DNA of 64,000 nucleotides, from positions 1 through 64,000 of the IMG/VR virus record IMGVR_UViG_3300027498_000003; one strand, written 5' to 3'. A program made the translations under genes and the position numbers. Below the pieces are notes generated by a model. That model saw only the letters and a program-made list of their open reading frames with translations. It searched no databases and was not told where the DNA came from. Shown in pieces: positions 10,317 to 23,323 of the stretch (positions are counted from its first letter, which is position 1; each line of letters opens with the position of its first letter). The stretch is from a virus.

Positions 10317-11219
10317 ATGGATAAGACAGGAATTGGAGATCGAATGAAATCTCAATACGAACATAGGACTCGGCAGTCCCTCCCGAGAAGAACTAATACT
10401 ATTATTAGATTAGACGGGAAATCGTTCCATACCTACACTGAAGGATTAGATAAACCCTTCGATGAAGGACTAATAGAAGATATACAACAGACAGCCATAT
10501 ATCTATGTGAGAATATACAGGGAGCTAAATGCGCATTCACTCAAAGTGATGAGATAACCCTGTTGCTTACTGACTATGATACTATAACTACTCATGCTTG
10601 GTTTGATGGTAATGTGCAGAAGATAACTTCTACTTCAGCAGGCTATGCCTCAGTTAAATTTTATCAGCAAAGATTACTAAGGGCTGTTGAGGGTAACCTA
10701 CCTATGGATGAGGTTATATTTAAAGATAGTTTACCTACATTCGACTCAAGAGTGTTTACTATAGCAGATAAAGAAGAAGTAGTAAATAACTTCATCTGGC
10801 GGCAACAAGACGCTGAGAGAAATTCTATACAGATGTTGGCTCAAAGTTTATACTCTCATAACGAATTGCATAAAAAGAATACATCTATGCTCCAAGACAT
10901 GTGCTTTGATAAGGGGCATAACTGGAACGATTTACATTTCAGTAAGAAGAGAGGTAGTCTTATACTTAATAATACTTATATAGATAATCGAATAGTAGAT
11001 GGGGATAATATAGAATTTTATAGAAATGGATATGGAAGTTTCAAAGAGCCGTGCTATATGGAAAGGTACCAAGAGTTTTATGAAGCTGAATCTGGTATAA
11101 ACAAATGGAATTACAGACTAATTAAAGATCCCAAAATAAGGACTAAATGGGAAGTAGTAGATACTCCTATATTTACAAAATATAGAGATATTATTAAAAA
11201 CTTAATGCCTATAATATGA
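10317..11219 (+). CDS. Thg1-like 3'-5' RNA polymerase (tRNA-His guanylyltransferase family)
   Basis: A 300-residue protein with the family signatures. IIRLDGKSFH holds the first metal-binding Asp (about D33). FTQSDEITLLL holds the second Asp-Glu pair (about D78/E79). GNVQKITSTSAGYASVKFY follows. Thg1 enzymes add nucleotides to RNA 5' ends in the 3'-5' direction; non-eukaryotic Thg1-like proteins repair 5'-truncated tRNAs. The C-terminal half (WRQQDAERNSIQMLAQ...) fits bacterial-type members. In a phage it could restore tRNAs damaged by host defence nucleases (inference). The next gene starts in an ATGA overlap. Confidence 0.85.
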   Translation: MDKTGIGDRMKSQYEHRTRQSLPRRTNTIIRLDGKSFHTYTEGLDKPFDEGLIEDIQQTAIYLCENIQGAKCAFTQSDEITLLLTDYDTITTHAWFDGNVQKITSTSAGYASVKFYQQRLLRAVEGNLPMDEVIFKDSLPTFDSRVFTIADKEEVVNNFIWRQQDAERNSIQMLAQSLYSHNELHKKNTSMLQDMCFDKGHNWNDLHFSKKRGSLILNNTYIDNRIVDGDNIEFYRNGYGSFKEPCYMERYQEFYEAESGINKWNYRLIKDPKIRTKWEVVDTPIFTKYRDIIKNLMPII

Positions 11220-13862: not shown

Positions 13863-13924
13863 TACACATTATTAAGCAGTGTATGGGAAATGATAAGTAC
13901 CGTTGCTTCTAAAATTGAAACACA

Positions 13925-14167
13925 ATGATTAAGAATATGATAAAAACAATACTTGAAAAACTAAAGGTCAAGAAACCAAAAAGTAATGGTATCTTATCTA
14001 ATATTAAGTCTCGTGATTATACATTCTATAGAGTTAATAGAACTCACGTTATATACAATGGAGATCATCTTGAACTGATAGGTACTAAAGTAAGGGTATG
14101 TTATTTTGACTATATGAATAATAAAAAGTACTCTCGTAAATATATAGACAATCTTCATGAGACTTAA
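13925..14167 (+). CDS. Hypothetical basic protein, 80 aa
   Basis: A lysine-rich protein (MIKNMIKTILEKLKVKKPKSNG then beta-rich YTFYRVNRTHVIYNGDHLELIG). Its stop codon is part of a TTAATGGATAG string that resembles the start of the promoter modules seen downstream, so it marks the left edge of the cassette array. Confidence 0.55.
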   Translation: MIKNMIKTILEKLKVKKPKSNGILSNIKSRDYTFYRVNRTHVIYNGDHLELIGTKVRVCYFDYMNNKKYSRKYIDNLHET

Positions 14168-14246
14168 TGGATAGGTACATACGGTAAGGATGGATGATAA
14201 TGCTGTTGATATGTGCCGTCATAACGAAACTATTAATTGAAAACAA
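14168..14246 (+). promoter_or_regulatory. Degenerate cassette spacer with promoter-like elements
   Basis: Contains the 20-mer-like string GGTAAGGATGGATGATAATG (14183-14202), which recurs almost exactly at 18667-18688 with two extra bases. It is followed by GTTG, then GTGCCGTC as in the spacer at 15173. A late TATTAATTG might be the -7 box. No strong hairpin. Confidence 0.4.
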
Positions 14247-14483
14247 ATGAATAAAGAATACCACCTAATAAAAGAACAGACATCTGATGCTCGTGATGGC
14301 ATCATATCTGATATTAGTCGCAGTATTTACGGCTATGTTATTGAGTACAAATTAGAAACCAAGACAGAATATAGCTGGCTGATGTATACTAATCGCATAT
14401 ACACAAGTGAAATGGAAGCTATGAACAACTTAAAATTAGTCACTAAATATGAAGCCAGATTAAGGACTCTATATTACGACTAA
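14247..14483 (+). CDS. Cassette ORF, hypothetical, 78 aa
   Basis: First clear member of the small-gene array. Soluble, with mixed strands and helices (GIISDISRSIYGYVIEYKLETKTEYSWLMYTNRIYTSEMEAMNNL). Its TAA is the first part of TAATGGACTG, the conserved promoter start, so the coding end is fused to the module. Function unknown. Confidence 0.65.
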   Translation: MNKEYHLIKEQTSDARDGIISDISRSIYGYVIEYKLETKTEYSWLMYTNRIYTSEMEAMNNLKLVTKYEARLRTLYYD

Positions 14484-14525
14484 TGGACTGCGTACATCTC
14501 CCGTCATCTATCAAATTGCGGGAGA
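14481..14525 (+). promoter_or_regulatory. Promoter module with dyad around the -7 box
   Basis: TAATGGACTG (-33 ACTG at 14487-14490), a 20-bp spacer, then TCAAATTG at 14511-14518 in the -7 position. A 7-bp dyad, TCTCCCG (14497-14503) with CGGGAGA (14519-14525), encloses the -7 box. It precedes the gene at 14540. Confidence 0.55.
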
Positions 14526-14539
14526 GCAAAATAATAAAA

Positions 14540-14707
14540 ATGAAAAAAGAGAATAAACAAAAATGGAGAACTACCGCATGGATGCTAATAGCCACATCAG
14601 CAGGAGTCCTTATAAGGCACACATGGGGAACTGAATATGTAATATCCTCAATAATAATATTAGCGGTAGGTATGTGGCTATATTCCACAGATGATAAAGC
14701 GGGATAG
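14540..14707 (+). CDS. Cassette ORF, two-span membrane protein, 55 aa
   Basis: ATG 14540 is chosen because the in-frame ATG at 14483 lies in the promoter element. Basic N-terminus (KKENKQKWR), then two hydrophobic segments (WMLIATSAGVLI and VISSIIILAVGMWLY). Probably an inner-membrane hairpin protein of unknown role. Confidence 0.6.
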   Translation: MKKENKQKWRTTAWMLIATSAGVLIRHTWGTEYVISSIIILAVGMWLYSTDDKAG

Positions 14708-14736
14708 GCTTGATAGATTATGGGATGATAGCGTAT

Positions 14737-14880
14737 ATTATAAGTAGGTGCAATTCAAACTGATAACCAAGTGTACAGTAGAATGATTGAACAATTCGGA
14801 TGCTAATATCTGAAAATCAATCTGCACTTACTTATAATGGATTGGCGATAACGATTGTCACCTATCAATTTTGAGGGTGG
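14737..14880 (+). promoter_or_regulatory. Hairpin-promoter module with 16-bp arms
   Basis: Left arm 14737-14752 and right arm 14823-14838 pair over 16 bp with one G-U, around a 70-nt loop. The right arm runs into TAATGGATTG (-33 ATTG 14841-14844), a 21-bp spacer and CAATTTTG at 14866-14873. CACC (14859-14862) and GGTG (14876-14879) flank the -7 box. It drives the ORF at 14908. Confidence 0.7.
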
Positions 14881-14907
14881 ATTTTATAACGATTAAATTA
14901 AAATAAA

Positions 14908-15087
14908 ATGATAAAAATAGCAGTAACAGAAGACCAAAGAGAGCTTATTATAGACGCTTTAAATAACTACTATCACTACTCAAATAACAAAGCTACTAAT
15001 AAAGAGTCCGGTGATATAGAAAAGAAACAATACAAGTCTATAAGAGATAAGTGTAAGCGGTTAATGTCAAGGCTCGACCCCTTTTAG
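14908..15087 (+). CDS. Cassette ORF, hypothetical, 59 aa
   Basis: A small charged helical protein (MIKIAVTEDQRELIIDALNNYYHYS...KKQYKSIRDKCKRLMSRLDPF) ending in TAG. It sits alone between two promoter modules. It resembles short phage proteins beginning with a helix-turn-helix-like pair, but no family is claimed. Confidence 0.6.
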   Translation: MIKIAVTEDQRELIIDALNNYYHYSNNKATNKESGDIEKKQYKSIRDKCKRLMSRLDPF

Positions 15088-15113
15088 CGCTGGCTTGATA
15101 GGTTATAATCTGT

Positions 15114-15202
15114 TATCGCCTATTATAGTTAAGCGATAGCGACCGTAGGTTAACTATAATGAGATTGGCGTATGTGCCGTCTTACCCATTTTGAGCGATG
15201 GG
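15114..15202 (+). promoter_or_regulatory. Hairpin-promoter module, copy 1 of a 48-bp exact repeat
   Basis: An 11-bp perfect inverted repeat (15122-15132 with 15150-15160) encloses an AAGCGATAGCGACC-type apex. Positions 15114-15161 are identical to 19375-19422. ATTG at 15164-15167, an 18-bp spacer and CCATTTTG at 15186-15193 form the promoter. CCCAT (15185-15189) and ATGGG (15198-15202) form the dyad around the -7 box. Confidence 0.7.
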
Positions 15203-15226
15203 ATTTATAAAACTAAAAATCAAAAC

Positions 15227-15478
15227 ATGAAATATAGTGCTGTACACAAACAATTAATTGTAACTCCAAAAGACTTGGGAGAGGCTGCGGATTCGATACT
15301 ATGGGCAATGAAAAGGTATAGAGACCTTGCAGGAATACCATTAAAACGAAGTAAGCCAGATAGTCTTGAAGATATAGATTTTGCTGAAAAAGAAATGCTT
15401 GAAGGTCTCGGCAAGATAGGCATAGACTTAGGGGCGAAGTGGGGTTATGAACTCGACCTTAGCGGGCTGGATGGTTAA
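15227..15478 (+). CDS. Cassette ORF, hypothetical, 83 aa
   Basis: ATG 15227; an upstream TTG start would fall in the -7 box. Mostly helical (LGEAADSILWAMKRYRDLAG...DIDFAEKEMLEGLGKIGIDLGAKWGYEL). Each boundary is a promoter module. Function unknown. Confidence 0.6.
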   Translation: MKYSAVHKQLIVTPKDLGEAADSILWAMKRYRDLAGIPLKRSKPDSLEDIDFAEKEMLEGLGKIGIDLGAKWGYELDLSGLDG

Positions 15479-15497
15479 TATGGTCATCATGTATCAT

Positions 15498-15545
15498 ATT
15501 ATCAGCTCCGTAGCGAAGCGGAGTTGCTGATAATGGATTGCAGAC
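15498..15545 (+). promoter_or_regulatory. Hairpin module with nested stem
   Basis: ATTATCAGC (15498-15506) pairs with GCTGATAAT (15526-15534). Inside it CTCCG (15506-15510) pairs with CGGAG (15519-15523) around TAGCGAAG. The right arm continues into TAATGGATTG (-33 ATTG), but no TTTG box lies at the expected distance, so promoter activity is less certain here. Confidence 0.6.
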
Positions 15546-15585
15546 ATGCGGTGGACTTATTAATTAATATTAACAATAAATATTT

Positions 15586-15879
15586 ATGACAGAGCAAGTA
15601 CTTATAGGAGTAATCAGACAAGGTGCAATAGAGCTGAGAGATGAAAAATATCAGTTAGAAAGAAATGGATTGTCAAAAGCAATAAAAGATGCCGTTGATA
15701 GTCTAGAAACCTTAATTAATAAGTCTAATGTCATATCGCCTATTATAGAGAGGGATTGCGTGGAGGCTTGCAAGACTGTAGTAGAATCTTATGAAGGTGA
15801 CGGAATGGAAAATATGGACAATAGAGATCAAGTAATGTACGATACTTGCAAAAAAGCGTTGGCGAATCATTCTCTATAA
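15586..15879 (+). CDS. Cassette ORF, possible fusion, 97 aa
   Basis: A helical acidic protein. In its middle (15731-15748) it contains the 18-base string TCATATCGCCTATTATAG, which elsewhere forms the left arm of a spacer hairpin (19372-19389) and is read in the same frame (ISPII). This suggests two cassettes joined through a module, leaving a scar. It ends in TCTATAATG, so the stop lies in another module-like string. Confidence 0.6.
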   Translation: MTEQVLIGVIRQGAIELRDEKYQLERNGLSKAIKDAVDSLETLINKSNVISPIIERDCVEACKTVVESYEGDGMENMDNRDQVMYDTCKKALANHSL

Positions 15880-15990
15880 TGTACAAAGACATCCATCGTC
15901 TGCGAAGCATATGATGTGATCGTCGGTTATTATATGCTGACTCCCACCAATACAAAACTAAATTTTAAACACTTAAAAAATAAAAAAGCG
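15880..15990 (+). promoter_or_regulatory. Cassette spacer with weak hairpin
   Basis: GCATAT (at about 15908) and ATATGC (at about 15943) could pair around a loop ending TTATTAT. CTGCGAAGC matches the apical motif of other modules. No good -33/-7 pair is visible. It precedes the ORF at 15991. Confidence 0.35.
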
Positions 15991-16197
15991 ATGGCAAATC
16001 ACACAGAAATTAGATGGAGCTCAGGACAAGATGAATACACGGTATCAGAGATAGAATATATGTTACAATCTCAAAGGGCAATGATATACAACGATATTAA
16101 TCACCTAATACGTCAACAGAAAGGCAGCGGTAAAAGGTCTAAGGAAGAAATAGAGATAATGGACTACCTAAGAGACCCAAGGAAGGTAGAGATATAG
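15991..16197 (+). CDS. Cassette ORF, hypothetical, 68 aa
   Basis: ATG 15991 chosen over an upstream start that reads through the spacer. Contains EIRWSSGQDEYTVSEIEYMLQSQRAMIYNDINHLIRQQKG, predicted helical and charged. Unknown function. Confidence 0.6.
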   Translation: MANHTEIRWSSGQDEYTVSEIEYMLQSQRAMIYNDINHLIRQQKGSGKRSKEEIEIMDYLRDPRKVEI

Positions 16198-16275
16198 GCT
16201 TTTATTTTTTATGCCAAGTTCAACTACAATCTTTAAATCGAAGAACCGAACTTAGCTTGCATATAATGTAGAATT

Positions 16276-16306
16276 GTAATCACTGTGCGATAGCATGGTG
16301 TATTAC
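16276..16306 (+). promoter_or_regulatory. Spacer hairpin with GATA tetraloop
   Basis: 16276-16288 pairs with 16293-16306 (13 bp including two G-U pairs and one bulged T) around the loop GATA. It follows a TATAATGTAG string, and ATATTATTAAC follows it. Promoter boxes are not clear. The 143-bp spacer 16198-16340 holds nothing else recognisable. Confidence 0.5.
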
Positions 16307-16340
16307 ATATTATTAACTGCTGTTTTTAAAGTATTTTACG

Positions 16341-16604
16341 ATGAAATTAATATTATGTAGAAAGTGTCAAGACGTGGTTCGGCTGATGCAAGATGAAGTA
16401 AGAACCTGTAAGTGTGGAGAATGCAGTGGTCAATATACTGACGACTTAAACGCATGGTACAAAGGTGAACAAGCTGTCCCATTAGGGTTTGCCAACCACT
16501 CATTAGTCAATGCTGTAGTTAATCAGCCGAAAGAGGGATGGGGAGAAGATTTCAAGGCTTTTGTTATACCCGAATCTTGTGATACTTTTAAAAATTGCAG
16601 TTAA
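16341..16604 (+). CDS. Cassette ORF, zinc-ribbon-like protein, 87 aa
   Basis: N-terminal LCRKCQDVVRLMQDEVRTCKCGECSGQY gives a four-Cys CxxC...CxCxxC arrangement, probably a zinc ribbon. The rest is unremarkable and ends with two Cys. No enzyme motif. Zinc-ribbon microproteins often bind nucleic acid or partner proteins, which is only a general expectation. Confidence 0.65.
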   Translation: MKLILCRKCQDVVRLMQDEVRTCKCGECSGQYTDDLNAWYKGEQAVPLGFANHSLVNAVVNQPKEGWGEDFKAFVIPESCDTFKNCS

Positions 16605-16611
16605 TGTCAAT

Positions 16612-16649
16612 GATAACCATAGCGTAACGGGGTGGAGTTATGTGTTATC
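16612..16649 (+). promoter_or_regulatory. Spacer hairpin
   Basis: GATAACCATA (16612-16621) pairs with TATGTGTTATC (16639-16649) with one bulged T. It follows TAATGTCAATG at the end of the previous ORF. Similar TAATG...GATAACC strings occur at 17731 and 31690. Confidence 0.4.
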
Positions 16650-16676
16650 TATTATTATACTCCGTAAATTATAAAT

Positions 16677-16955
16677 GTGATAACTAAGAGTGAAATACTA
16701 AAAAAAGGGTGGGTGGAGTCCCTACCCGAGTTCCTTATGGTCACAACAGGGGGTATACCCAAGTACTATGTCTATGTAAAACAAAAAGGTAAAAGAATAA
16801 CTATATATAAAATGACCATAGGAGGAGCCTTGATGTGTAATAAAACTTTAAAGATACAAATTAAAAGAGATATAATATTTAAAGGGACTCTTAGTGGGGC
16901 TGAGGACTTAAACAAACTGATGATGATGCTAAGGATAATCCCTTATGGAGTATAA
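16677..16955 (+). CDS. Cassette ORF, hypothetical, 92 aa
   Basis: GTG start at 16677; the overlapping ATG at 16675 is followed at once by TGA. The protein opens ITKSEILKKGW and contains YYVYVKQKGKRITIYKMTIGG and a basic strand-rich centre. It ends in TATGGAGTATAATGG, touching the next module. Function unknown. Confidence 0.55.
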   Translation: MITKSEILKKGWVESLPEFLMVTTGGIPKYYVYVKQKGKRITIYKMTIGGALMCNKTLKIQIKRDIIFKGTLSGAEDLNKLMMMLRIIPYGV

Positions 16956-16964
16956 TGGAGAATT

Positions 16965-17000
16965 ATATCGAGAGGATGAGGCACGAATCTTCTCTGATAT
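16965..17000 (+). promoter_or_regulatory. Spacer hairpin
   Basis: ATATC-G-AGAG (16965-16974) pairs with CTCT-GATAT (16992-17000), nine base pairs with one bulged G. It follows TATAATGGAGAATT. No convincing TTTG box. Confidence 0.4.
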
Positions 17001-17037
17001 GTATTATTATATGTCGTGACAACACAAAACGTAAATA

Positions 17038-17250
17038 ATGAAAGTATACGAAATAATTAAGATTACAGGATTAGGAGTAATGGAATGTCCAAGTAAAACA
17101 CATCCAACTGGTATGATATATGACACTAAAGAAGCTGCCCAAAATAAAGCAAATGAACTATGGTTAGAAAATACTACTGACGAAGAAAGAAAGTCTGGAT
17201 GGTGTCCACTCAATTACTCCGTGTCTGAGGTGGAAATACAATCTGCATGA
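17038..17250 (+). CDS. Cassette ORF, hypothetical, 70 aa
   Basis: Contains KTHPTGMIYDTKEAAQNKANELW and ends LNYSVSEVEIQSA. The fold looks alpha/beta; the DTKEAAQNKANEL pattern is common in small phage proteins. No function known. Confidence 0.6.
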   Translation: MKVYEIIKITGLGVMECPSKTHPTGMIYDTKEAAQNKANELWLENTTDEERKSGWCPLNYSVSEVEIQSA

Positions 17251-17253
17251 CAT

Positions 17254-17299
17254 ATAATGAAAAATTGTATCTCCCGTCTCATTTTCTTTTTGTGGGAGG
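17254..17299 (+). promoter_or_regulatory. Promoter module with dyad
   Basis: TATAATGAAAAATTG is followed by CTCCC (17271-17275) and GGGAG (17294-17298), enclosing CTTTTTG in the -7 position. The -33 to -7 spacing is shorter (about 17) than in other modules. No upstream hairpin here. Confidence 0.5.
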
Positions 17300-17324
17300 A
17301 TTGAAAACTTAAAATATAAAACAA

Positions 17325-17717
17325 ATGACTAAATCTGAATTATTAGAAGATGTAAAATTCTTAGCACAAAGGCAAAGTAGGGCAGGCTCTTTCGGTGGTC
17401 ACGGAGATAGAAGATATGTAGGCAGTAGCAGCAACTCTATTGTGTCAATCGCATATGGCGTAGCTGAATTAAAAGATCAATATATGCCAGGGGATGGCGC
17501 TGATGTACAGAGTTGCATAAATATGTGGACAATACAACTACCTAACCACCGAAAGAAAGGGAAGGCATTAAAGGCTTATCAGTCTGCCATAAATTCCGAA
17601 TGGTATTATAAAAATACATATAGGCAATGTCCAAAATGCGAAGGATTAAGTAAAAAAGAGACTGATAAATGCGATTGGTGTGGGGAGGCAATAGGAAAAG
17701 AAAATGATATGGCATGA
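17325..17717 (+). CDS. Cassette ORF with C-terminal zinc ribbon, 130 aa
   Basis: N-terminal helix (TKSELLEDVKFLAQRQSRAG), a glycine/serine-rich segment and RRYVGSSSNSIVSIAYGVAELKDQY. The C-terminus has CPKCEG...CDWCGEA, a classical two-knuckle zinc ribbon (about residues 105-120). The largest gene in the first half of the array. Function unknown. Confidence 0.65.
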   Translation: MTKSELLEDVKFLAQRQSRAGSFGGHGDRRYVGSSSNSIVSIAYGVAELKDQYMPGDGADVQSCINMWTIQLPNHRKKGKALKAYQSAINSEWYYKNTYRQCPKCEGLSKKETDKCDWCGEAIGKENDMA

Positions 17718-17724
17718 TACATAT

Positions 17725-17773
17725 TATTATAATGGATAGTGATAATCACTGCTTTCTTCATCTTTTGAGGGAG
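17725..17773 (+). promoter_or_regulatory. Promoter module
   Basis: ATTATAATGGATAG (-33 ATAG 17736-17739), then exactly 20 bp, then ATCTTTTG (17760-17767), followed by AGGGAGG. AGTGATAATCACT (17738-17750) forms a small perfect inverted repeat inside the spacer. Confidence 0.55.
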
Positions 17774-17799
17774 GCTTTACTAAAAATTAAATCATAAAA

Positions 17800-18030
17800 A
17801 TGGTAGTTGCTTTAGGAAAAATCGTGGTCGAGATGACCGAGGAGGAATTTAATAAACTTGCTGTAGCAAAAAATAAGCGTGACTTAGTAGAGGCTAAAGA
17901 AGATATAGATAATGGTATTGCCCATGATGATGAATGGGACAAAGCAAATAACGCTTATTGTGCGGTTTATAAACAACTCTTAGAATCAAGAAAACCTATC
18001 TCGACCTTTGAAGAACAATTGTTTATTTGA
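17800..18030 (+). CDS. Cassette ORF, hypothetical, 76 aa
   Basis: Acidic, helical protein with an internal VEMTEEEFNKLAVAKNKRDLVEAKEDIDNG and a helical C-terminus. Its TGA falls in TTTGAGGGAGGGG, copying the string found after -7 boxes elsewhere. Unknown function. Confidence 0.6.
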   Translation: MVVALGKIVVEMTEEEFNKLAVAKNKRDLVEAKEDIDNGIAHDDEWDKANNAYCAVYKQLLESRKPISTFEEQLFI

Positions 18031-18053
18031 GGGAGGGGATAGACGACTTGCGT

Positions 18054-18079
18054 ACTACCGATAATATACTGATGGTAGT
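18054..18079 (+). promoter_or_regulatory. Spacer hairpin
   Basis: ACTACC (18054-18059) pairs with GGTAGT (18074-18079). The loop holds ATAATATACTG. CTTGCGTAC precedes it, as in other modules (GCGTA). A TTTTTTG at about 18096 may be a -7 box. Confidence 0.4.
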
Positions 18080-18119
18080 CTGAGGATTTTTTGACAGTAA
18101 ATGAAAAACTAAATTAAAT

Positions 18120-18389
18120 ATGAACGAATTATTATTAAGATGGTGGAACGAGGAAAGAAAAAGCTGGTCTGTTATAGATGATACAGATTTATGTGGATAT
18201 GATGATTTATGTGACTTCGCAAGGTGGGTAAACCTAAATGCCAGTCAAAAATCTTCTGTACTACCATCTATTATCTCAGAGAGCGAAGCGAACGGCGTAT
18301 GCTCTGACTGCGATGGCGACAGAATATATGAAGAATATGGCTCTACTTATCCGTGCGAAACTTGTAACGGAACTGGGAAGAGCATATGA
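18120..18389 (+). CDS. Cassette ORF with DnaJ-type zinc motif, 89 aa
   Basis: The C-terminus contains CSDCDGDR...CETCNGTGK, two CxxCxG-type repeats as in the DnaJ cysteine-rich domain (about residues 62-86). The N-terminal part is acidic and Trp-rich (LLRWWNEERKSWSVIDDTDLCGYDDLCDFARW). It probably binds one zinc ion. Function unknown. Confidence 0.65.
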   Translation: MNELLLRWWNEERKSWSVIDDTDLCGYDDLCDFARWVNLNASQKSSVLPSIISESEANGVCSDCDGDRIYEEYGSTYPCETCNGTGKSI

Positions 18390-18392
18390 GAG

Positions 18393-18439
18393 ATAATGTA
18401 GTTGTGATAAGATGAGTTAAATCCTACTTTGAGGGTAGG
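18393..18439 (+). promoter_or_regulatory. Promoter module with dyad
   Basis: ATAATGTAGTTG (-33 GTTG 18401-18404), a 19-bp spacer, then CTACTTTG at 18424-18431. CCTAC (18423-18427) and GTAGG (18435-18439) form the dyad around the -7 box. Confidence 0.6.
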
Positions 18440-18467
18440 CAAATTAGTAAACAATAAAATTAGAAAT

Positions 18468-18662
18468 ATGGAAGATTTTAAGAACCAAATAGTAGGTCAA
18501 CTAAAAGCACAGGGCAAAGAATCTGCTGCTAATGTAATGAAAGGTCGTCATGTAGTAGTAGTAAAATACTGTGAGCAAAAAGGATGGGATATGAACGACC
18601 TATCATTTGATAAAATACTTGAGATTAGGAAGACCGATGCTTGGAAGAACGGTGATGTATAA
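18468..18662 (+). CDS. Cassette ORF, hypothetical, 64 aa
   Basis: ATG 18468; an upstream TTG would lie in the promoter. Short basic helical protein (MEDFKNQIVGQLKAQGKESAANVMKGRHVVVVKYCEQKGWDMNDLSFDKILEIRKT). No known family. Confidence 0.6.
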   Translation: MEDFKNQIVGQLKAQGKESAANVMKGRHVVVVKYCEQKGWDMNDLSFDKILEIRKTDAWKNGDV

Positions 18663-18666
18663 GCGT

Positions 18667-18726
18667 GGTAAGGATGGATGATATAATGTATGAGTACATC
18701 TCCCGTCTTACTATCATTTGAGGGAG
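18667..18726 (+). promoter_or_regulatory. Promoter module with dyad
   Basis: GGTAAGGATGGATGATATAATG (18667-18688, shared with 14183) precedes -33 TATG (18689-18692), a 20-bp spacer and ATCATTTG (18713-18720). CTCCC (18700-18704) and GGGAG (18722-18726) enclose the -7 box. Confidence 0.6.
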
Positions 18727-18753
18727 GCATTAAATAAACTAAACAATTTTAAA

Positions 18754-19002
18754 ATGGATAAACCTATAAAATTAATACAAGGAGAAACTTATATCTTCCA
18801 AAAAAGAACATACCCGAATCCAGTAAAGAAACTGAAAATCAGGGAGCTTACGAAGACTTCTATCTATGTCCAAGATGTAGACCAAGAAAATAGCTACAGA
18901 GATGAGTTACACACCTTTAACCGAGAGTGGAAACCAATAGAAGTCATGCCAAATAAATTAATCGAAAGTCTAATGAGGGAGGCTGATAGTAATATGGGAT
19001 GA
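18754..19002 (+). CDS. Cassette ORF, hypothetical, 82 aa
   Basis: ATG 18754; an in-frame TTG at 18718 is part of the promoter. Beta-rich N-terminus (IKLIQGETYIFQKRTYPNPVKKLKIRELTKTSIYVQDVD), suggesting a small SH3-like or OB-like barrel. Unknown function. Confidence 0.6.
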   Translation: MDKPIKLIQGETYIFQKRTYPNPVKKLKIRELTKTSIYVQDVDQENSYRDELHTFNREWKPIEVMPNKLIESLMREADSNMG

Positions 19003-19010
19003 TGTACGGT

Positions 19011-19070
19011 ATTATAATGCAGCCTAGCGACCCAACGGGTGCATTATAATGGCATGGCGATCATGTTCTG
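19011..19070 (+). promoter_or_regulatory. Hairpin module with 11-bp arms
   Basis: ATTATAATGCA (19011-19021) pairs perfectly with TGCATTATAAT (19040-19050). The loop holds CCTAGCGACC and an inner CCC/GGG. It continues with GGCATGGCGATCATG, aligned with the -33 region of other modules. The TCTAATTTTTA that follows is only a weak -7. Confidence 0.6.
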
Positions 19071-19118
19071 TCTAATTTTTATTAGCGTGAGATATTCCAC
19101 AAAATTTAAACTTGAAAA

Positions 19119-19400
19119 ATGAATAACTGGATTAACGTAAATGATAGGCTGCCTACCATAGGTGATGAGGTTTTAATTATAGACAACGATAGCAGTGTCG
19201 GGATTGCATTTTTAAATAAAGGATTAAAATGGTATGAAGCACAGACGTGGACTTTTGTATCAGGTGATTGGGGACACTACGACAATGATACAGAAGTGGA
19301 TAATAAAGTTACCCACTGGCAGCCGATTCCCGAAGCACCAAGTGAAGAAGTAGAGCAAAGATCAGATGGAATCATATCGCCTATTATAGTTAAGCGATAG
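19119..19400 (+). CDS. DUF551-like protein, 93 aa
   Basis: Recognised by NWINVNDRLPTIGDEVLIID at the start and VTHWQPIPEAP near the end, the signature of DUF551, a family common in phages with no known activity. Its last residues (IISPIIVKR) are encoded by the left arm of the following hairpin, so gene end and regulatory module are physically merged. Confidence 0.8.
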   Translation: MNNWINVNDRLPTIGDEVLIIDNDSSVGIAFLNKGLKWYEAQTWTFVSGDWGHYDNDTEVDNKVTHWQPIPEAPSEEVEQRSDGIISPIIVKR

Positions 19401-19460
19401 CGACCGTAGGTTAACTATAATGGATTGAGTATAAAAATCGTCTATCCTATATTTGAGGAT
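19375..19460 (+). promoter_or_regulatory. Hairpin-promoter module, copy 2 of the 48-bp exact repeat
   Basis: Identical to 15114-15161 over 48 bp. Arms are 19383-19393 and 19411-19421. Promoter: ATTG (19424-19427), exactly 20 bp, TATATTTG (19448-19455), a full match to the Bacteroidota TAnnTTTG box. The dyad ATCCT (19444-19448) with AGGAT (19456-19460) surrounds it. This is the best promoter in the array. Confidence 0.75.
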
Positions 19461-19480
19461 GAGCATAACCAAAATAAATT

Positions 19481-19678
19481 ATGACAGAAAAACAATACAT
19501 AGAAGTAAAAGCACTCGGAACTATAACCGCTGCAATAAATACGCTAAGAGACTTAGTACCAGCCAATCTAACCCATATAATCAAAGAGAGTGAAGCCAAA
19601 AAAACCATAGGTACATTAATGGAGTGGCAAGACAGATTATTTGAAGTTTTACAGATAAACCAAGATGAAGAAGAGTAA
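19481..19678 (+). CDS. Cassette ORF, hypothetical, 65 aa
   Basis: A short helical protein (KALGTITAAINTLRDLVPANLTHIIKESEAKKTIGTLMEWQDRLFEVLQ) with acidic tail. Driven by the strong module at 19375-19460. Unknown function. Confidence 0.6.
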   Translation: MTEKQYIEVKALGTITAAINTLRDLVPANLTHIIKESEAKKTIGTLMEWQDRLFEVLQINQDEEE

Positions 19679-19697
19679 AGGGTACAAGTCGCTTATG

Positions 19698-19729
19698 GTG
19701 GCGGTAGCGAAAAATAATATTGTACATAA
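19698..19729 (+). repeat. 32-bp repeat shared with 22698-22729
   Basis: The string beginning GTGGCGGT and ending ATTGTACATAA is repeated at 22698-22729 with four differences. The second copy supplies the -33 ATTG of a promoter with a perfect -7 box. Here the -7 position is less clear. It lies in the spacer before the ORF at 19786. Confidence 0.55.
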
Positions 19730-19785
19730 TGTGGAGTGATAGTGAGAGTCTATTTTTTAATTTAGCGAGAGCAAAAAAAACACAA

Positions 19786-20046
19786 ATGTCAATAGTAAAA
19801 TACTTCATCAAGGATAATGTAAAAACATTCAGTAACAAACAAGCTGTAAACGACGGATGGGATGCGGAACTAAATGAAGAAGCGTTGATTGGACTAATCC
19901 TTGAAGACAGAAGCAATCCTAAACACAAAGTCAAAATCAAAGGATTGAATTACCACTTAGGAACTATGATAGTCCATTGGGAAGAGGGAGGCTGGAACTG
20001 CTTAGATCATGCGGTAGAACAATTTAAGAGGGTTGGCAAAAAATAG
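19786..20046 (+). CDS. Cassette ORF, hypothetical, 86 aa
   Basis: ATG 19786 is chosen; the longer frame reads through the promoter region. Contains NKQAVNDGWDAELNEEALIGLILEDRSNPKHKVKIKGLNYHLGTMIVHWEEGGWNCLDHAV. Mixed alpha/beta, single Cys. Unknown function. Confidence 0.55.
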   Translation: MSIVKYFIKDNVKTFSNKQAVNDGWDAELNEEALIGLILEDRSNPKHKVKIKGLNYHLGTMIVHWEEGGWNCLDHAVEQFKRVGKK

Positions 20047-20063
20047 ATTCTCTACTATCACAT

Positions 20064-20150
20064 ATTATCATAATGAACGTAGTGAATGACGGTGAGGTAC
20101 GAACTGGATGATAATGAATGGTGATAAGTGTAGTTTTCTATCAATTTGAG
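20064..20150 (+). promoter_or_regulatory. Hairpin-promoter module
   Basis: ATTATCAT (20064-20071) pairs with ATGATAAT (20108-20115). Then -33 AATG (20117-20120), exactly 20 bp and TCAATTTG (20141-20148). The dyad around the -7 box is absent here. Confidence 0.65.
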
Positions 20151-20180
20151 TAAAGCAATTTTTAAATCTAAATAAATATT

Positions 20181-20456
20181 ATGAGTCACCACAGGATTAA
20201 GACTAAATACGAAAATGATACAGGTATGGGTATAGTCGAACAAAAGACACTATATATGGACATCAATAATTCTTGCGATGTAGTAACAATAAGGGATGAT
20301 GATGGTAGTGTTATCTATAGCTACGGTGAAGGTAGTAACAACTTTGAAGATGCTCTTATACGACTAATCAAAGGAATGCCCGAAACTGATGACACTATCG
20401 AGCGATGGGATAAGGAAGACCTGTATCTGCACGGAGTGCTAAAGAGGGAGGCTTGA
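20181..20456 (+). CDS. Cassette ORF, hypothetical, 91 aa
   Basis: Soluble, acidic, beta then alpha (TLYMDINNSCDVVTIRDDDGSVIYSYGEGSNNFEDALIRLIKGM). Ends in AAGAGGGAGGCTTGATAG, a string similar to others at cassette edges. No family recognised. Confidence 0.6.
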   Translation: MSHHRIKTKYENDTGMGIVEQKTLYMDINNSCDVVTIRDDDGSVIYSYGEGSNNFEDALIRLIKGMPETDDTIERWDKEDLYLHGVLKREA

Positions 20457-20480
20457 TAGAAAATTATCATCTTATCACAT

Positions 20481-20538
20481 ATTATACGGAGTCATTAGCG
20501 TGGCTTCGTGTGATAGGATGATTCCGTATAATGGACTG
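20481..20538 (+). promoter_or_regulatory. Hairpin module with 15-bp arms
   Basis: 20481-20495 pairs with 20518-20532 over 15 bp with a single G-U. The 22-nt loop contains TAGCGTGGCTTCG. It continues into TAATGGACTGCGTATAAA. No TTTG box at the usual distance, so the promoter part may be degenerate. Confidence 0.65.
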
Positions 20539-20578
20539 CGTATAAAATGAGTGCGACATTAAACACTAAAATATAATT

Positions 20579-20869
20579 ATGGAAGAAATAGTCAATTGCC
20601 CTCTTTGTGGGAGGGAGGAAGAATACGGAAATATGTATGAGTACAGAGGTGCTTTATCTTGCGGAGAATGCTTTGAGGAATCACAGAAGAAAAGAGACGT
20701 GGAAAGAGCAGAGGTTATCACTGAAGAAAAATCCAAGACAGATAAATTCAAAGGATTAGACCTAAGTGACAGCACGATAGGTAAGGCTAACAAGCATATA
20801 CTTAAAAGCGATATAGAGATAGCAAAAAAAGAGGGCTTACGAATAGCTAAATACGAAGGTAGAATCTAA
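20579..20869 (+). CDS. Cassette ORF with zinc knuckle, 96 aa
   Basis: N-terminal CPLCGREEEYGNMYEYRGALSCGECFEE gives a CxxC...CxxC zinc ribbon (about residues 7-32). The rest is charged and helical. Likely binds nucleic acid or a protein partner; no specific function. Confidence 0.65.
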   Translation: MEEIVNCPLCGREEEYGNMYEYRGALSCGECFEESQKKRDVERAEVITEEKSKTDKFKGLDLSDSTIGKANKHILKSDIEIAKKEGLRIAKYEGRI

Positions 20870-20878
20870 GCATTCATT

Positions 20879-20966
20879 TTTATACGCTATTATCAGTAAG
20901 CGAAGCGACCCTTTAGGTTACTTATAATGGATTGCGTATAAACTTAGTCTCACCCTTATGCGGGTG
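20879..20966 (+). promoter_or_regulatory. Two-level hairpin module with dyad
   Basis: Outer arms TTTATACGC (20879-20887) and GCGTATAAA (20934-20942) pair over 9 bp. Inner arms 20889-20899 and 20918-20928 pair over 10 of 11. GGATT forms an asymmetric bulge between them. A further dyad CACCC (20951-20955) with GGGTG (20962-20966) lies where the -7 box is expected. This is the fullest example of the module fold. Confidence 0.7.
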
Positions 20967-20994
20967 GGCGATTAAATAACTTTTAAAATTATAA

Positions 20995-21276
20995 ATGATG
21001 GAATTATACAAAATAGATTCTGGCGAAATAGAATACGTTGCCGCTGAAAGCCTGGTGAAGCTATTCATCTTCTACAAAGAAGAAACTGGCGAAGACTTAT
21101 TAGACATGGACGCTAGTGTAACAAATGTTCATAAATCTAAGTGGCCACACATGAAAATATACGACTCAGATGAAACAGATGAAAATAATGAGCCTCTTTA
21201 TATCCAAACATTTGAAGAAGCCATGAGCGATAAATCATTGCATAAGCCTTGCTTCATAGCATCTTCGGTTTATTAG
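20995..21276 (+). CDS. Cassette ORF, hypothetical, 93 aa
   Basis: Two adjacent ATG codons at 20995 and 20998. Acidic protein (VKLFIFYKEETGEDLLDMDASVTNVHKSKWPHMKIYDSDETDENNEPLYIQTFEEA). No domain recognised. Confidence 0.6.
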   Translation: MMELYKIDSGEIEYVAAESLVKLFIFYKEETGEDLLDMDASVTNVHKSKWPHMKIYDSDETDENNEPLYIQTFEEAMSDKSLHKPCFIASSVY

Positions 21277-21310
21277 AGTTAGGCAAGGGTGATATTAAGT
21301 TTTATACGCC

Positions 21311-21364
21311 ATTATAGTGAGTGCTTCGGGTTGGCATTTGTGGGCTTGCTGCATTCACTATAAT
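21311..21364 (+). promoter_or_regulatory. Hairpin module with 14-bp arms
   Basis: 21311-21324 pairs with 21351-21364 over 14 bp with one G-U at the same place as in the module at 20481. TTTATACGCC precedes the left arm, as at 20879. TAATGTATAG then starts the promoter part, but the -7 region (TATTTTTTAG) is off consensus. Confidence 0.65.
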
Positions 21365-21416
21365 GTATAGTGATATGCTCTGTATTTTTTAGATATTTTA
21401 AAACGAAAATAAATTC

Positions 21417-21683
21417 ATGAAAACTAAGCAAGAAATAAAGGAAGATTTATGGTCAGATGCAGAATTAGAGTCTGATGGATGGCAATCAAGAATGGAATAT
21501 AATGAGTTTATGCTAACTCTTGATAAATACGAAAAGGCTCTAAAAAATATGGAGTCATCATCACGTATTATAGACCGAAGGGAACTGTTAGAGGCTTTCA
21601 AAAAGTATAGTAACGAAGCTGATAATGTTTTACACATAGGGGATGATGACATTGAAAAATTCTTAGCCTCTAATAGTCTATAA
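21417..21683 (+). CDS. Cassette ORF, hypothetical, 88 aa
   Basis: Helical, acidic (MKTKQEIKEDLWSDAELESDGWQSRMEYNEFMLTLDKYEKALKNMESSS). Ends AGTCTATAATGTAC, like the ORF at 15586, so its stop is embedded in a module-like string. Unknown function. Confidence 0.6.
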   Translation: MKTKQEIKEDLWSDAELESDGWQSRMEYNEFMLTLDKYEKALKNMESSSRIIDRRELLEAFKKYSNEADNVLHIGDDDIEKFLASNSL

Positions 21684-21763
21684 TGTACAGTACATATCGA
21701 GAGTATATTTTTTTGAGTTGCGGAGCTGAACACGTTTAAATAGAAAAAAATTAAATCTTAAAT
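21684..21763 (+). promoter_or_regulatory. Degenerate cassette spacer
   Basis: TGTACAGTACA is a short palindrome after the stop, and TTTTTTTGAG at about 21707 resembles the -7 and downstream sequence of other modules, though the spacing from ACAG is shorter. No long hairpin. Confidence 0.35.
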
Positions 21764-22048
21764 ATGAAAAAGATATTCAAATATGAAATGTCAATCAAGG
21801 AGAAGCAATCAATACAATTACCTATCGGTGCTGATATAATCAGAGTTGATGATGTAGACGGTAGATTCTTTCTATGGGCTATAGTGGCTCCACAAGAAGA
21901 GCCTGAGACTGAAACGAGATACTTAGAGTTCTATAAAACTGGACAAGAAATATTAACTAACACCGAAGATCTAAAGTATATCGGATTCTGCAAACTATTC
22001 ATTATGCAAGAACTCGGATTATATGTCTTTGAAAATATATCTAAATGA
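21764..22048 (+). CDS. Conserved small phage protein, 94 aa
   Basis: Has IFKYEMSIKEKQSIQLPIGADIIRVDDVDGRFFLWAIV, a pattern (IFKY...QxIxLPxGA...LWAxV) I recognise from many unrelated phages. The family has no known function. The stop overlaps the start of the dioxygenase-like gene by four bases, so the two are coupled. Confidence 0.75.
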   Translation: MKKIFKYEMSIKEKQSIQLPIGADIIRVDDVDGRFFLWAIVAPQEEPETETRYLEFYKTGQEILTNTEDLKYIGFCKLFIMQELGLYVFENISK

Positions 22049-22689
22049 GATACGGAGAATTACCAAAAGACTTAGGATTAGAAAAAGTCAATCCTACTGA
22101 GATGTTTTTCTATCAGTACTTACCAATAAAGCTAAGTGGACAAACTGAGCCTGTGATAGAAAAGCGACTTATGTGCTTGTCTGAACTGATAGGGAATATA
22201 AACTGCCAATTCGTAGCTGAGTATGGGTTAGAAAACTTTGTTAAGCATAATACCTATGTGACAGCAAAACATCAATTCCAAACTCCAGGATGTAGCTTTA
22301 ACAGAAAAGGCTATCACTCTGATGGATTCCTAACAGACGATATAAACTACGTATGGAGTAATAAGCAACCGACTGTATTCAATAGCGGAAAATTCGAATT
22401 AACATTAGACGACTCTATATCTCTAAGTGAGATGCAGGAGCAAGCTGAAAAGGAAAACGAAGTAACTTACCCTAACGGAACTCTACTGAGGCTAAACCAA
22501 TACAACATCCATAAAGTCGGTGAATGCAAAGAAGTAGGATTAAGATTGTTCGTGAAAGTATCCTTCTCTTTAGACAAATATGACCTATTGGGAAACAGTA
22601 AGAACTATCTATTAGATTACGACTGGGATATGCAACAAAGAAAGAATAAAAGAAATATCCCACAATCTAATATCTTAATTAGCTCATAG
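22045..22689 (+). CDS. Putative 2-oxoglutarate/Fe(II) dioxygenase-like protein
   Basis: A 214-residue protein whose centre reads CSFNRKGYHSDGF (an HxD iron-binding pair), with a distal NIHKVG histidine and a GLRLFVKVSFS segment supplying a possible 2-oxoglutarate-binding arginine. The order HxD...H...R is the double-stranded beta-helix oxygenase signature. Such phage enzymes may modify nucleotides or proteins; the substrate here is unknown. Coupled to the small gene upstream. Confidence 0.55.
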   Translation: MRYGELPKDLGLEKVNPTEMFFYQYLPIKLSGQTEPVIEKRLMCLSELIGNINCQFVAEYGLENFVKHNTYVTAKHQFQTPGCSFNRKGYHSDGFLTDDINYVWSNKQPTVFNSGKFELTLDDSISLSEMQEQAEKENEVTYPNGTLLRLNQYNIHKVGECKEVGLRLFVKVSFSLDKYDLLGNSKNYLLDYDWDMQQRKNKRNIPQSNILISS

Positions 22690-22697
22690 AGCTGAAA

Positions 22698-22751
22698 GTG
22701 GCGGTGTCAAAAAATAATATTGTGCATAACATCCTTTCTTCGCTATCTTTG
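22698..22751 (+). promoter_or_regulatory. Promoter for the secreted peptidase gene
   Basis: The 32-bp repeat shared with 19698 ends with ATTG at 22719-22722. After 21 bp comes TATCTTTG (22744-22751), a perfect TAnnTTTG -7 box. The ATG at 22757 lies only six bases on, so the mRNA may be leaderless or almost so. Confidence 0.65.
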
Positions 22752-22756
22752 TCTGC

Positions 22757-23323
22757 ATGAAAACATTATTTATATTACTATTTCCTATTTTACTTTCATC
22801 TCAGATAATAGAGGTAGATGACCAGCCTATAGATATGTGGGATGAGTACCATTTAATCATATCTCCGAGGGTTACTACTGATCAGTTTGTTTCCAAGTCG
22901 CCGGACGTGGAGGTAAGTTACATAGATATACAGCTCATAGCTGTCATATCTTTTCTATCATCGTATTATGATTCTGATATCTACATAACATCTGCTGGGA
23001 GATCGGCCTCAAATAACCCTGGATCCAGCAAATCACAACACATATACTGGAGAGCAGTTGACTTCAGGATTGCTAACAAAAAGGCTGCAGCTGACTTTAG
23101 AAAACAAATAACTAACAAAGAGGGGGAGGTATTTGAAAGCCTATTGTATATGGGAATAAAGGGATTCGGCGTTTATTCTCAAGGATTCTTCCATATAGAT
23201 ACCCGTATTTTCGCAGAAATGTTTACATTTAACTCAGATTACGGGCCTATGAACTACAATTACTGGACAACATTCTCTTCTAACTATGTTAATTATAATA
23301 ATTCCCCTATATGCACGCATTAA
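22757..23323 (+). CDS. Secreted M15-type peptidase, probable peptidoglycan hydrolase
   Basis: A 188-residue protein with an N-terminal signal peptide (MKTLFILLFPILLSSQ). SQHIYWRAVDFRI (H95, D102) and GVYSQGFFHIDTR (H146, D148) match the zinc-binding layout of M15 D-Ala-D-Ala carboxypeptidase or endolysin-like enzymes. It probably cleaves peptidoglycan cross-links in the periplasm, aiding lysis. It heads a group of exported proteins and has its own strong promoter. The next gene begins within about 20 bases of its stop. Confidence 0.75.
   Translation: MKTLFILLFPILLSSQIIEVDDQPIDMWDEYHLIISPRVTTDQFVSKSPDVEVSYIDIQLIAVISFLSSYYDSDIYITSAGRSASNNPGSSKSQHIYWRAVDFRIANKKAAADFRKQITNKEGEVFESLLYMGIKGFGVYSQGFFHIDTRIFAEMFTFNSDYGPMNYNYWTTFSSNYVNYNNSPICTH

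Follow-up and report, generated by a model that had tools for sequence, protein, structure and literature searches.

Positions 1 to 64,000 of the virus record IMGVR_UViG_3300027498_000003, hereafter the window, contain an array of about 22 small open reading frames (ORFs) strung along a near-unbroken chain of two kinds of inverted repeat, the A and B stems, which alternate over approximately 13,892-21,684 and occur on the + strand only. The chain divides into units that run from one TAATG to the next and hold one ORF each. A unit is ordered left A arm, ORF, right A arm, B hairpin, except that four carry their ORF within the loop of the B hairpin; arms pairing across a gene are specific to the unit of that gene. 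To judge from their sequence, these units are gene cassettes, putatively exchanged or processed one by one, and they could be matched to no known system. A preliminary description of this DNA had placed some 23 short ORFs at 14168-22756; the small ORFs and their spacers are there, and the limits are those given above; the two genes at 21,764-22,689 have neither A nor B stems.

The B stems (ATTAT..., ...ATAATG) are the hairpins of that description, which had noticed inverted repeats edged by ATTAT/ATAAT in several spacers. Eleven such repeats with at least three further perfect pairs lie at 13.9-22.8 kb, where 0.064 would be expected from a first-order Markov model; elsewhere in the 64 kb there is none. 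With strict criteria (eight exact pairs, TAATG, T at position 11), scanning returned 17 B stems for the window, every one of them on the + strand of the array, and 37 for 2.8 Mb of other loci. When partners were sought further upstream, several B left arms were found within the preceding ORF or before its start codon, with loops of up to ~320 nucleotides (nt): B7, B8, B9 and B10 each close round one whole ORF, and at six places the left arm falls within an ORF, the gene then either extending through both loops or terminating within the B stem. In alignment, positions 1-4 (ATTA/TAAT) are invariant and positions 6-9 covary freely, giving 55 double-change cells against 19.4 +/- 3.3 in shuffles, a signal that is lost when the alignment is slid. 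At position 11 all 16 rows have T on the right arm, which faces G in 10 of them and A in 4. B4 and B16 form an exact 48-bp duplicate that includes the whole B stem and ends at the boundary.

The search for upstream partners also revealed the A stems, which the preliminary description had missed. Here the leader of a gene pairs with sequence downstream of its stop codon, placing most genes inside their own A-stem loop, which can reach ~430 nt; in the four units with the gene in the B loop, the A hairpin is short. Upstream of ORF 14908-15087, for example, GGCGATAAC-GATTGTCACCTATCAA pairs with TTGATAGGTTATAATC-T-GTTATCGCC downstream. The order of elements is fixed: an outer helix of 6-8 bp (GYGATAA with TTATCRC), a single bulged T on the right arm, exactly four freely covarying pairs and a G.T wobble, followed mostly by a T-A pair, often by a C.T mismatch, and then by ~8-11 further pairs. 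Bulge and wobble were T and G.T, respectively, in 16 of 16 scored stems; the anchor G on the left arm was picked by eye and the right-arm position was set by best pairing only, so the T at neither place was imposed. Gap-free alignment of the 12 long-loop A stems shows changes on both sides in 22 of 24 pairs, and 96 double-change cells where shuffles give 34 +/- 4.5, with nothing comparable when slid by one to three columns. The strict scan found eight A stems in the window, again all in the array and on the + strand, and 16 in the 2.8 Mb of other loci. A and B stems alike covary strongly.

Pairing between the outer boxes within one junction, that is, between the A arms of neighbouring genes, was tried first and rejected (no covariation, p = 0.73), which is why pairing across the gene was looked for. 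In the 14 units for which the next B stem had been located, the A arms matched their own gene's partner with a summed score of 478, against 278 +/- 21 with genes swapped, a value reached in none of 100,000 permutations. A fixed-window comparison of leaders with trailers, made without any choice of stem, gave z = 5.2 for the array, 0.1 for other genes of the same phage and 0.2 for Cellulophaga phage phi14:2. The TAATG points never lie strictly within an ORF (0 of 22), though ORFs cover 71% of the span, and several coincide with a stop codon; inner junctions fall within ORFs in 6 of 18 cases. The natural unit is therefore TAATG to TAATG with one ORF. Linkers are asymmetric: in most cases the one ahead of B is 1-2 nt long and the one behind it 5 nt.

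Promoters, terminators and the strand that would fold

The preliminary description had attached to each hairpin a Bacteroidota promoter, with a -33 box and a TTTG-type -7 box at set spacing, and compared the module to the promoter-early stem-loop (PeSL) of T4-type phages. The near-constant distance is genuine, with TTTG 31-35 nt past TAATG in 9 of 20 modules and TTTGA in 8 of 20 (0.84 in shuffles), and every gene has a module of its own. The Bacteroidota promoter itself was not confirmed. In Flavobacterium T-12, A-11 and TTTG are almost invariant (PMC6847099), and the corresponding Bacteroidota sigma-A -7 consensus TAnnTTTG, found also in PMC2483708, is absent from 19 of the 20 modules. Sigma-70-like promoters (34 found, 35.6 expected) and terminator-like sites (2 found, 3.1 expected) occur in the array at chance, and the stems are AT-rich without a run of T; terminators as an explanation of the stems were set aside. 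The supposed -33 to -7 stretch, and with it the conserved spacing, is mostly the left arm of the A stem closing over the downstream gene, and a local second hairpin around TTTG (p = 0.058) overlaps the same arm. A textbook TTG-N17-23-TAnnTTTG does stand directly ahead of the gene at 22,757, beyond the array, so such promoters may occur in the phage, and a promoter of the virion polymerase or of another polymerase within the A arm is possible; in crAss-like phages the virion RNA polymerase transcribes early genes (PMC10136315). Modules in which the hairpin ended the upstream transcript, host or virion RNA polymerase started anew at each gene and module homology drove shuffling would nonetheless leave both the arms that pair across a gene and the left arms inside ORFs unexplained, and we consider them improbable.

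As to what folds, the fixed irregularity on the coding strand is G.T and not A.C, unconstrained RNA folding of 19731-20960 (1,230 nt) yields the stem chain by itself, the mean pairing probability is 0.78 for RNA, 0.63 for the DNA top strand and 0.52 for the bottom strand, and the + strand folding energy relative to shuffles has a mean z of -1.5 in the array and of -0.7 and 0.1 in two other regions. Together these values favour a folded + strand; a single genome does not distinguish RNA from single-stranded DNA. A polycistronic RNA might accordingly fold into consecutive stem domains of one gene each, with a structure-specific nuclease cutting the 5-nt linker between UAAU and G to give single-gene messages with a paired 5' end and a 3' hairpin, or with stems that insulate or stabilise messages without any cut. 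That all stems lie on the coding strand and that no ORF crosses TAATG sit well with such domains, which we regard as the chief rival of the exchange reading and a serious possibility, while leaning somewhat against them. Outside the fixed columns the core has 394 Watson-Crick pairs, 10 G.U pairs and 6 A.C mismatches (pair percentages are biased upward because stems were located by complementarity), so that G.U makes up 10 of 404 standard pairs and barely exceeds A.C, which argues against freely drifting RNA pairing. The short boxes are, moreover, conserved in sequence, the phage has no RNase III family member above cut-off, and no Rfam 15 model reaches its gathering score anywhere in the window.

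Near-exact pairing with few wobbles of either kind would also suit arms without present function, whether remains of terminal inverted repeats or sequences kept complementary by template switching in replication (quasi-palindrome correction), and the genome has an IS200/IS605 element at another locus. Such repair would, however, erase the bulged T and the G.T, which persist in every scored A stem, and one family of terminal repeats would share its sequence between copies rather than covary freely. We therefore think this very improbable.

The exchange reading and its carrier phage

Our tentative preference, held short of probable, is for folded-strand gene cassettes that would work like integron attC cassettes by analogy, without being such cassettes. 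A more specific form, towards which we lean with more doubt than belief, would be a new phage gene-cassette system that does not depend on the integrase and attC family known from integrons. On circularisation between TAAT and G, its cassette-specific arms would fold into a recombination site marked by the bulged T and the G.T. The boundary, read as a folded single strand, would be the point of exchange, at which a unit would be released as a circle or exchanged; of the models considered, this one accounts for most of what was observed. In the circle the unit's own A arms would flank its own B hairpin, and together they would make a single long hairpin that, with its central internal loop, bulge and wobble, follows the general layout of attC; in the array the neighbour would supply the other A arm, so that only the boxes GYGATAA and TTATCRC would need common sequence. 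With DNA parameters, the own-arm junction of the circle form is more stable than the array hybrid with a neighbour in 12 of 13 units (mean -20.1 versus -13.4 kcal/mol). A circle would explain why covariation is cassette-specific and absent between neighbours, why only the short boxes are conserved and why the exact B4/B16 duplicate ends at a boundary. The enzyme might come from the host, from another element or from an unrecognised family, rather than being an identifiable tyrosine or serine recombinase of the phage record, and the function would be to capture small phage genes, probably accessory ones, and to reshuffle them. What the sequence shows is the anatomy of the units and the specificity of their arms; that they fold in the cell, the exchange, the circle and the enzyme are all steps that we infer.

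Several results weigh against exchange. A loops of up to ~430 nt are long for DNA folding in a linear array, RNA explains the fold at least equally well, and its pairing probability exceeds that of either DNA strand. Across the 126.5-kb record there is no match to the tyrosine recombinase family PF00589 at E 10, a search that was positive in 14 of 14 control genomes, nor to the serine recombinase family PF00239. Junctions near 14,198, 17,730, 18,030-18,120, 18,684 and 19,727 are incomplete, in that the site has collapsed or a left B arm could not be made out convincingly; GGTAAGGATGGATGATA precedes TAATG at both 14,198 and 18,684, which may be scars or units that have degraded. Exchange itself was not observed, since no relative was found in which the array is rearranged. 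The exchangeable cassettes of the preliminary description are supported, as an inference, by the single ORF of each unit, by arms specific to each cassette and by the duplication of one hairpin, exact at its boundaries.

No second example of the array was found in the IMG/VR, phage and bacterial genome collections searched, with tools that may leave out records very near the window's own. The array had no blastn match among 50,697 phages. Scanning IMG/VR for left plus right boxes gave chance matches in coding sequence only; the box patterns gave none or single scattered matches in IMG/VR and bacterial genomes, and the strict stem scan found no arrays there. The preliminary description had proposed looking for its module in related phages; a covariance model of the short-loop B modules (R1) had no convincing match (best E ~0.3) in phi14:2 or among 34 records that hold relatives of the terminase or of the small genes, and IMG/VR relatives of ORF 22045-22689 (loci L010-L026) have no such stems.

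The window belongs to a 126,546-bp virus record whose predicted terminase, primase, DNA polymerase and genome layout identify it as an uncultured, Crassvirales-like (crAss-like) phage. Its primase and DNA polymerase are related to those of crAss-like phages. Among named phages, phi14:2 has the closest terminase (25.7% identity, 88% covered), and the genome layout matches phi14:2. Terminase relatives in IMG/VR are similarly remote (21-28%), so that no close genome could be compared; neither the primase nor a late-block structural protein (524 amino acids, a capsid candidate by position) had relatives in IMG/VR. The genome also encodes an IS200-type transposase TnpA (PF01797) with a divergent TnpB (PF01385, Cas12f1-like_TNB) at L004:7785-9312 (record 108785-110312), a SET-domain protein (PF00856), surprising for a phage, at L004:12468-13520 (record 113468-114520), and, a few kb upstream of the array at window 10317-11219, a Thg1-family tRNA-His guanylyltransferase.

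Blocks of short unknown genes are frequent in crAss-like phages and their purpose is debated (reviewed in PMC10136315). A block with sharp, structure-defined boundaries makes the way in which phages collect and sort accessory genes testable at ~20 sites. Were the exchange reading true, phages would possess a cassette system distinct from the known integrons; were the RNA reading true, a transcript would fold nearly every gene into its own domain by one fixed motif.

Coordinates, gene content and neighbouring sequence

Table 1. Stems of the array in order along the window, with the ORFs they enclose or touch.
Feature	Position	Strand	Description
Whole array	13892..21685	+	alternating A/B stems, ~22 small ORFs
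A0 stem	13892..13998	+	arms 13892-13908 / 13981-13998 (outer GATAAG/CTTATC, bulged T, TACC/GGTA, G.T); closes over start of ORF 13925-14167
B1 stem	14003..14168	+	ATTAAGTCTCG.../...TGAGACTTAAT-G; stop codon of ORF 13925-14167 in right arm
A1 stem	14208..14308	+	arms 14208-14221 / 14294-14308; closes over start of ORF 14247-14483
B2 stem	14313..14484	+	left arm within ORF 14247-14483, right arm at stop codon
A2 stem	14496..14729	+	arms 14496-14514 / 14710-14729; ORF 14540-14707 enclosed
B3 stem	14737..14838	+	16 bp including one G.T
A3 stem	14844..15120	+	arms 14844-14868 / 15095-15120; ORF 14908-15087 enclosed
B4 stem	15122..15160	+	identical to B16
A4 stem	15172..15490	+	weaker, gapped; ORF 15228-15478 enclosed
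B5 stem	15498..15534	+	
A5 stem	15540..15739	+	core GACTTATTAATTAA/TTAATTAATAAGTC; closes over start of ORF 15586-15879
B6 stem	15742..15880	+	left arm within ORF 15586-15879, right arm at stop
A6 hairpin	15888..15924	+	short loop
B7 stem	15929..16267	+	whole ORF 15993-16198 enclosed
A7 hairpin	16272..16311	+	short loop
B8 stem	16312..16605	+	ORF 16341-16604 enclosed, stop codon in right arm
A8 hairpin	16612..16649	+	short loop
B9 stem	16654..16956	+	ORF 16677-16955 enclosed, stop codon in right arm
A9 hairpin	16965..17000	+	short loop
B10 stem	17006..17258	+	whole ORF 17038-17250 enclosed
A10 stem	17266..17721	+	arms 17266-17290 / 17696-17721; ORF 17325-17717 enclosed
Collapsed B site	17723..17733	+	ATTATTATAAT, no stem; assigned from sequence
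A12 stem	18071..18268	+	arms 18071-18097 / 18242-18268; closes over start of ORF 18120-18389
B13 stem	18270..18397	+	left arm within ORF 18120-18389
A14 stem	18694..19007	+	arms 18694-18716 / 18984-19007; ORF 18754-19002 enclosed
B15 stem	19011..19050	+	
A15 stem	19056..19381	+	arms 19056-19080 / 19357-19381; ORF 19119-19400 enclosed minus last codons
B16 stem	19383..19421	+	identical to B4
A17 stem	19736..20061	+	arms 19736-19758 / 20038-20061; ORF 19786-20046 enclosed
B18 stem	20064..20115	+	
A18 stem	20118..20480	+	arms 20118-20144 / 20453-20480; ORF 20181-20456 enclosed
B19 stem	20481..20532	+	
A19 stem	20538..20887	+	arms 20538-20554 / 20870-20887; ORF 20579-20869 enclosed
B20 stem	20889..20928	+	
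A20 stem	20934..21309	+	arms 20934-20957 / 21285-21309; ORF 20995-21276 enclosed
B21 stem	21311..21364	+	
A21 stem	21370..21564	+	closes over start of ORF 21417-21683
B22 stem	21567..21684	+	left arm within ORF 21417-21683, right arm at stop; final array unit

Pfam and family comparisons left most of the array's ORFs unassigned, with some weak CxxC zinc-ribbon-like matches. ORF 19119-19400 is DUF551, ORF 20579-20869 weakly matches the restriction alleviation protein Lar, below the Pfam cut-off, and ORF 20995-21276 belongs to phrog_5459, a phage family of unknown function; an accessory or counter-defence role for these putative cassette proteins is plausible. The C-terminal ends encoded in the B6 loop (15742-15879) and the B22 loop (21567-21683) look similar by eye (II[ED]R...EA.K ... 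SL) and the N-terminal parts differ, a resemblance that could possibly reflect C-terminal segments exchanged at the inner junction.

The array carries the sequence GAGGGAGG seven times on its + strand (at window 18030-20720 and in leaders of cassettes), and the remaining genome has it about three times; it is found in leaders (TTTGAGGGAGGC) as well as at ORF ends (GAGGGAGGCTTGATAG). Copies of a 39-nt repeat, 82% identical, lie at 19691-19729 and 22691-22729; the second overlaps the textbook Bacteroidota promoter (TTG ... TATCTTTG) ahead of the endolysin-like gene 22757-23323. Just beyond the array, ORF 22045-22689 encodes a phrog_1843 protein with 32-42% identity to proteins of phages of the very different hosts Microbacterium, Rhizobium, Pseudoalteromonas and Acinetobacter. 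On an unrelated viral contig (L011:5700-7188), ATAACATGGCACAACAGACA is common to many gene starts, as a repeated start-codon context plus N-terminus.

Comparison with known systems

Invertible or shufflon arrays of serine recombinases were rejected, PF00239 being absent and the sites differing between units, and terminal-repeat transposons were considered and set aside. The processing stems that RNase III cuts in phage early operons and rRNA precursors may enclose or separate genes of one transcript, as the array stems enclose whole genes or separate them; the array motif is far stricter, with boxes, bulge and wobble at fixed positions, no such phage enzyme was identified, and this explanation was likewise set aside. 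Hairpins of IS608 carry an unpaired T, and the ends of IS200/IS605 elements resemble the array as hairpins read by sequence and structure together, with TnpA and TnpB encoded elsewhere in the phage. The array stems differ in enclosing genes and alternating in two types, and the strict stem scan found no array-like clusters at the TnpA/TnpB locus. The PeSL cassettes of T4-type phages, as outlined in PMC4503421 and the works it cites (Arbiol 2010, Comeau 2014), also comprise numerous small phage genes split by a repeated stem-loop module that is suspected of mediating shuffling; set against that outline, the array has no promoter or terminator signal above chance, its stems covary across whole genes and its loops run from 8 to more than 400 nt.

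Integron cassettes with attC sites are the analogue of the preferred reading. The boxes that define attC are absent, GTTRRRY lying near 1 of 22 right boundaries and RYYYAAC upstream of 0 of 14 left boundaries, so the array is not filed as an integron cassette array; nor is there an integrase in the record. It has, unlike attC, a second, cassette-specific stem over the gene, with genes in either loop. Sites of the attC type carry extrahelical bases, and the array shares with them strand-specific irregularities, short conserved boxes with variable stems and loops, and asymmetric spacers. Clusters of attC sites lacking an integrase (CALIN) occur in virulent phages (PMC9892861), and the array resembles integron cassettes and such clusters in layout: one-ORF cassettes in a single orientation, each with a hairpin site at its 3' end that may overlap the end of the ORF, in an array with no adjoining recombinase.

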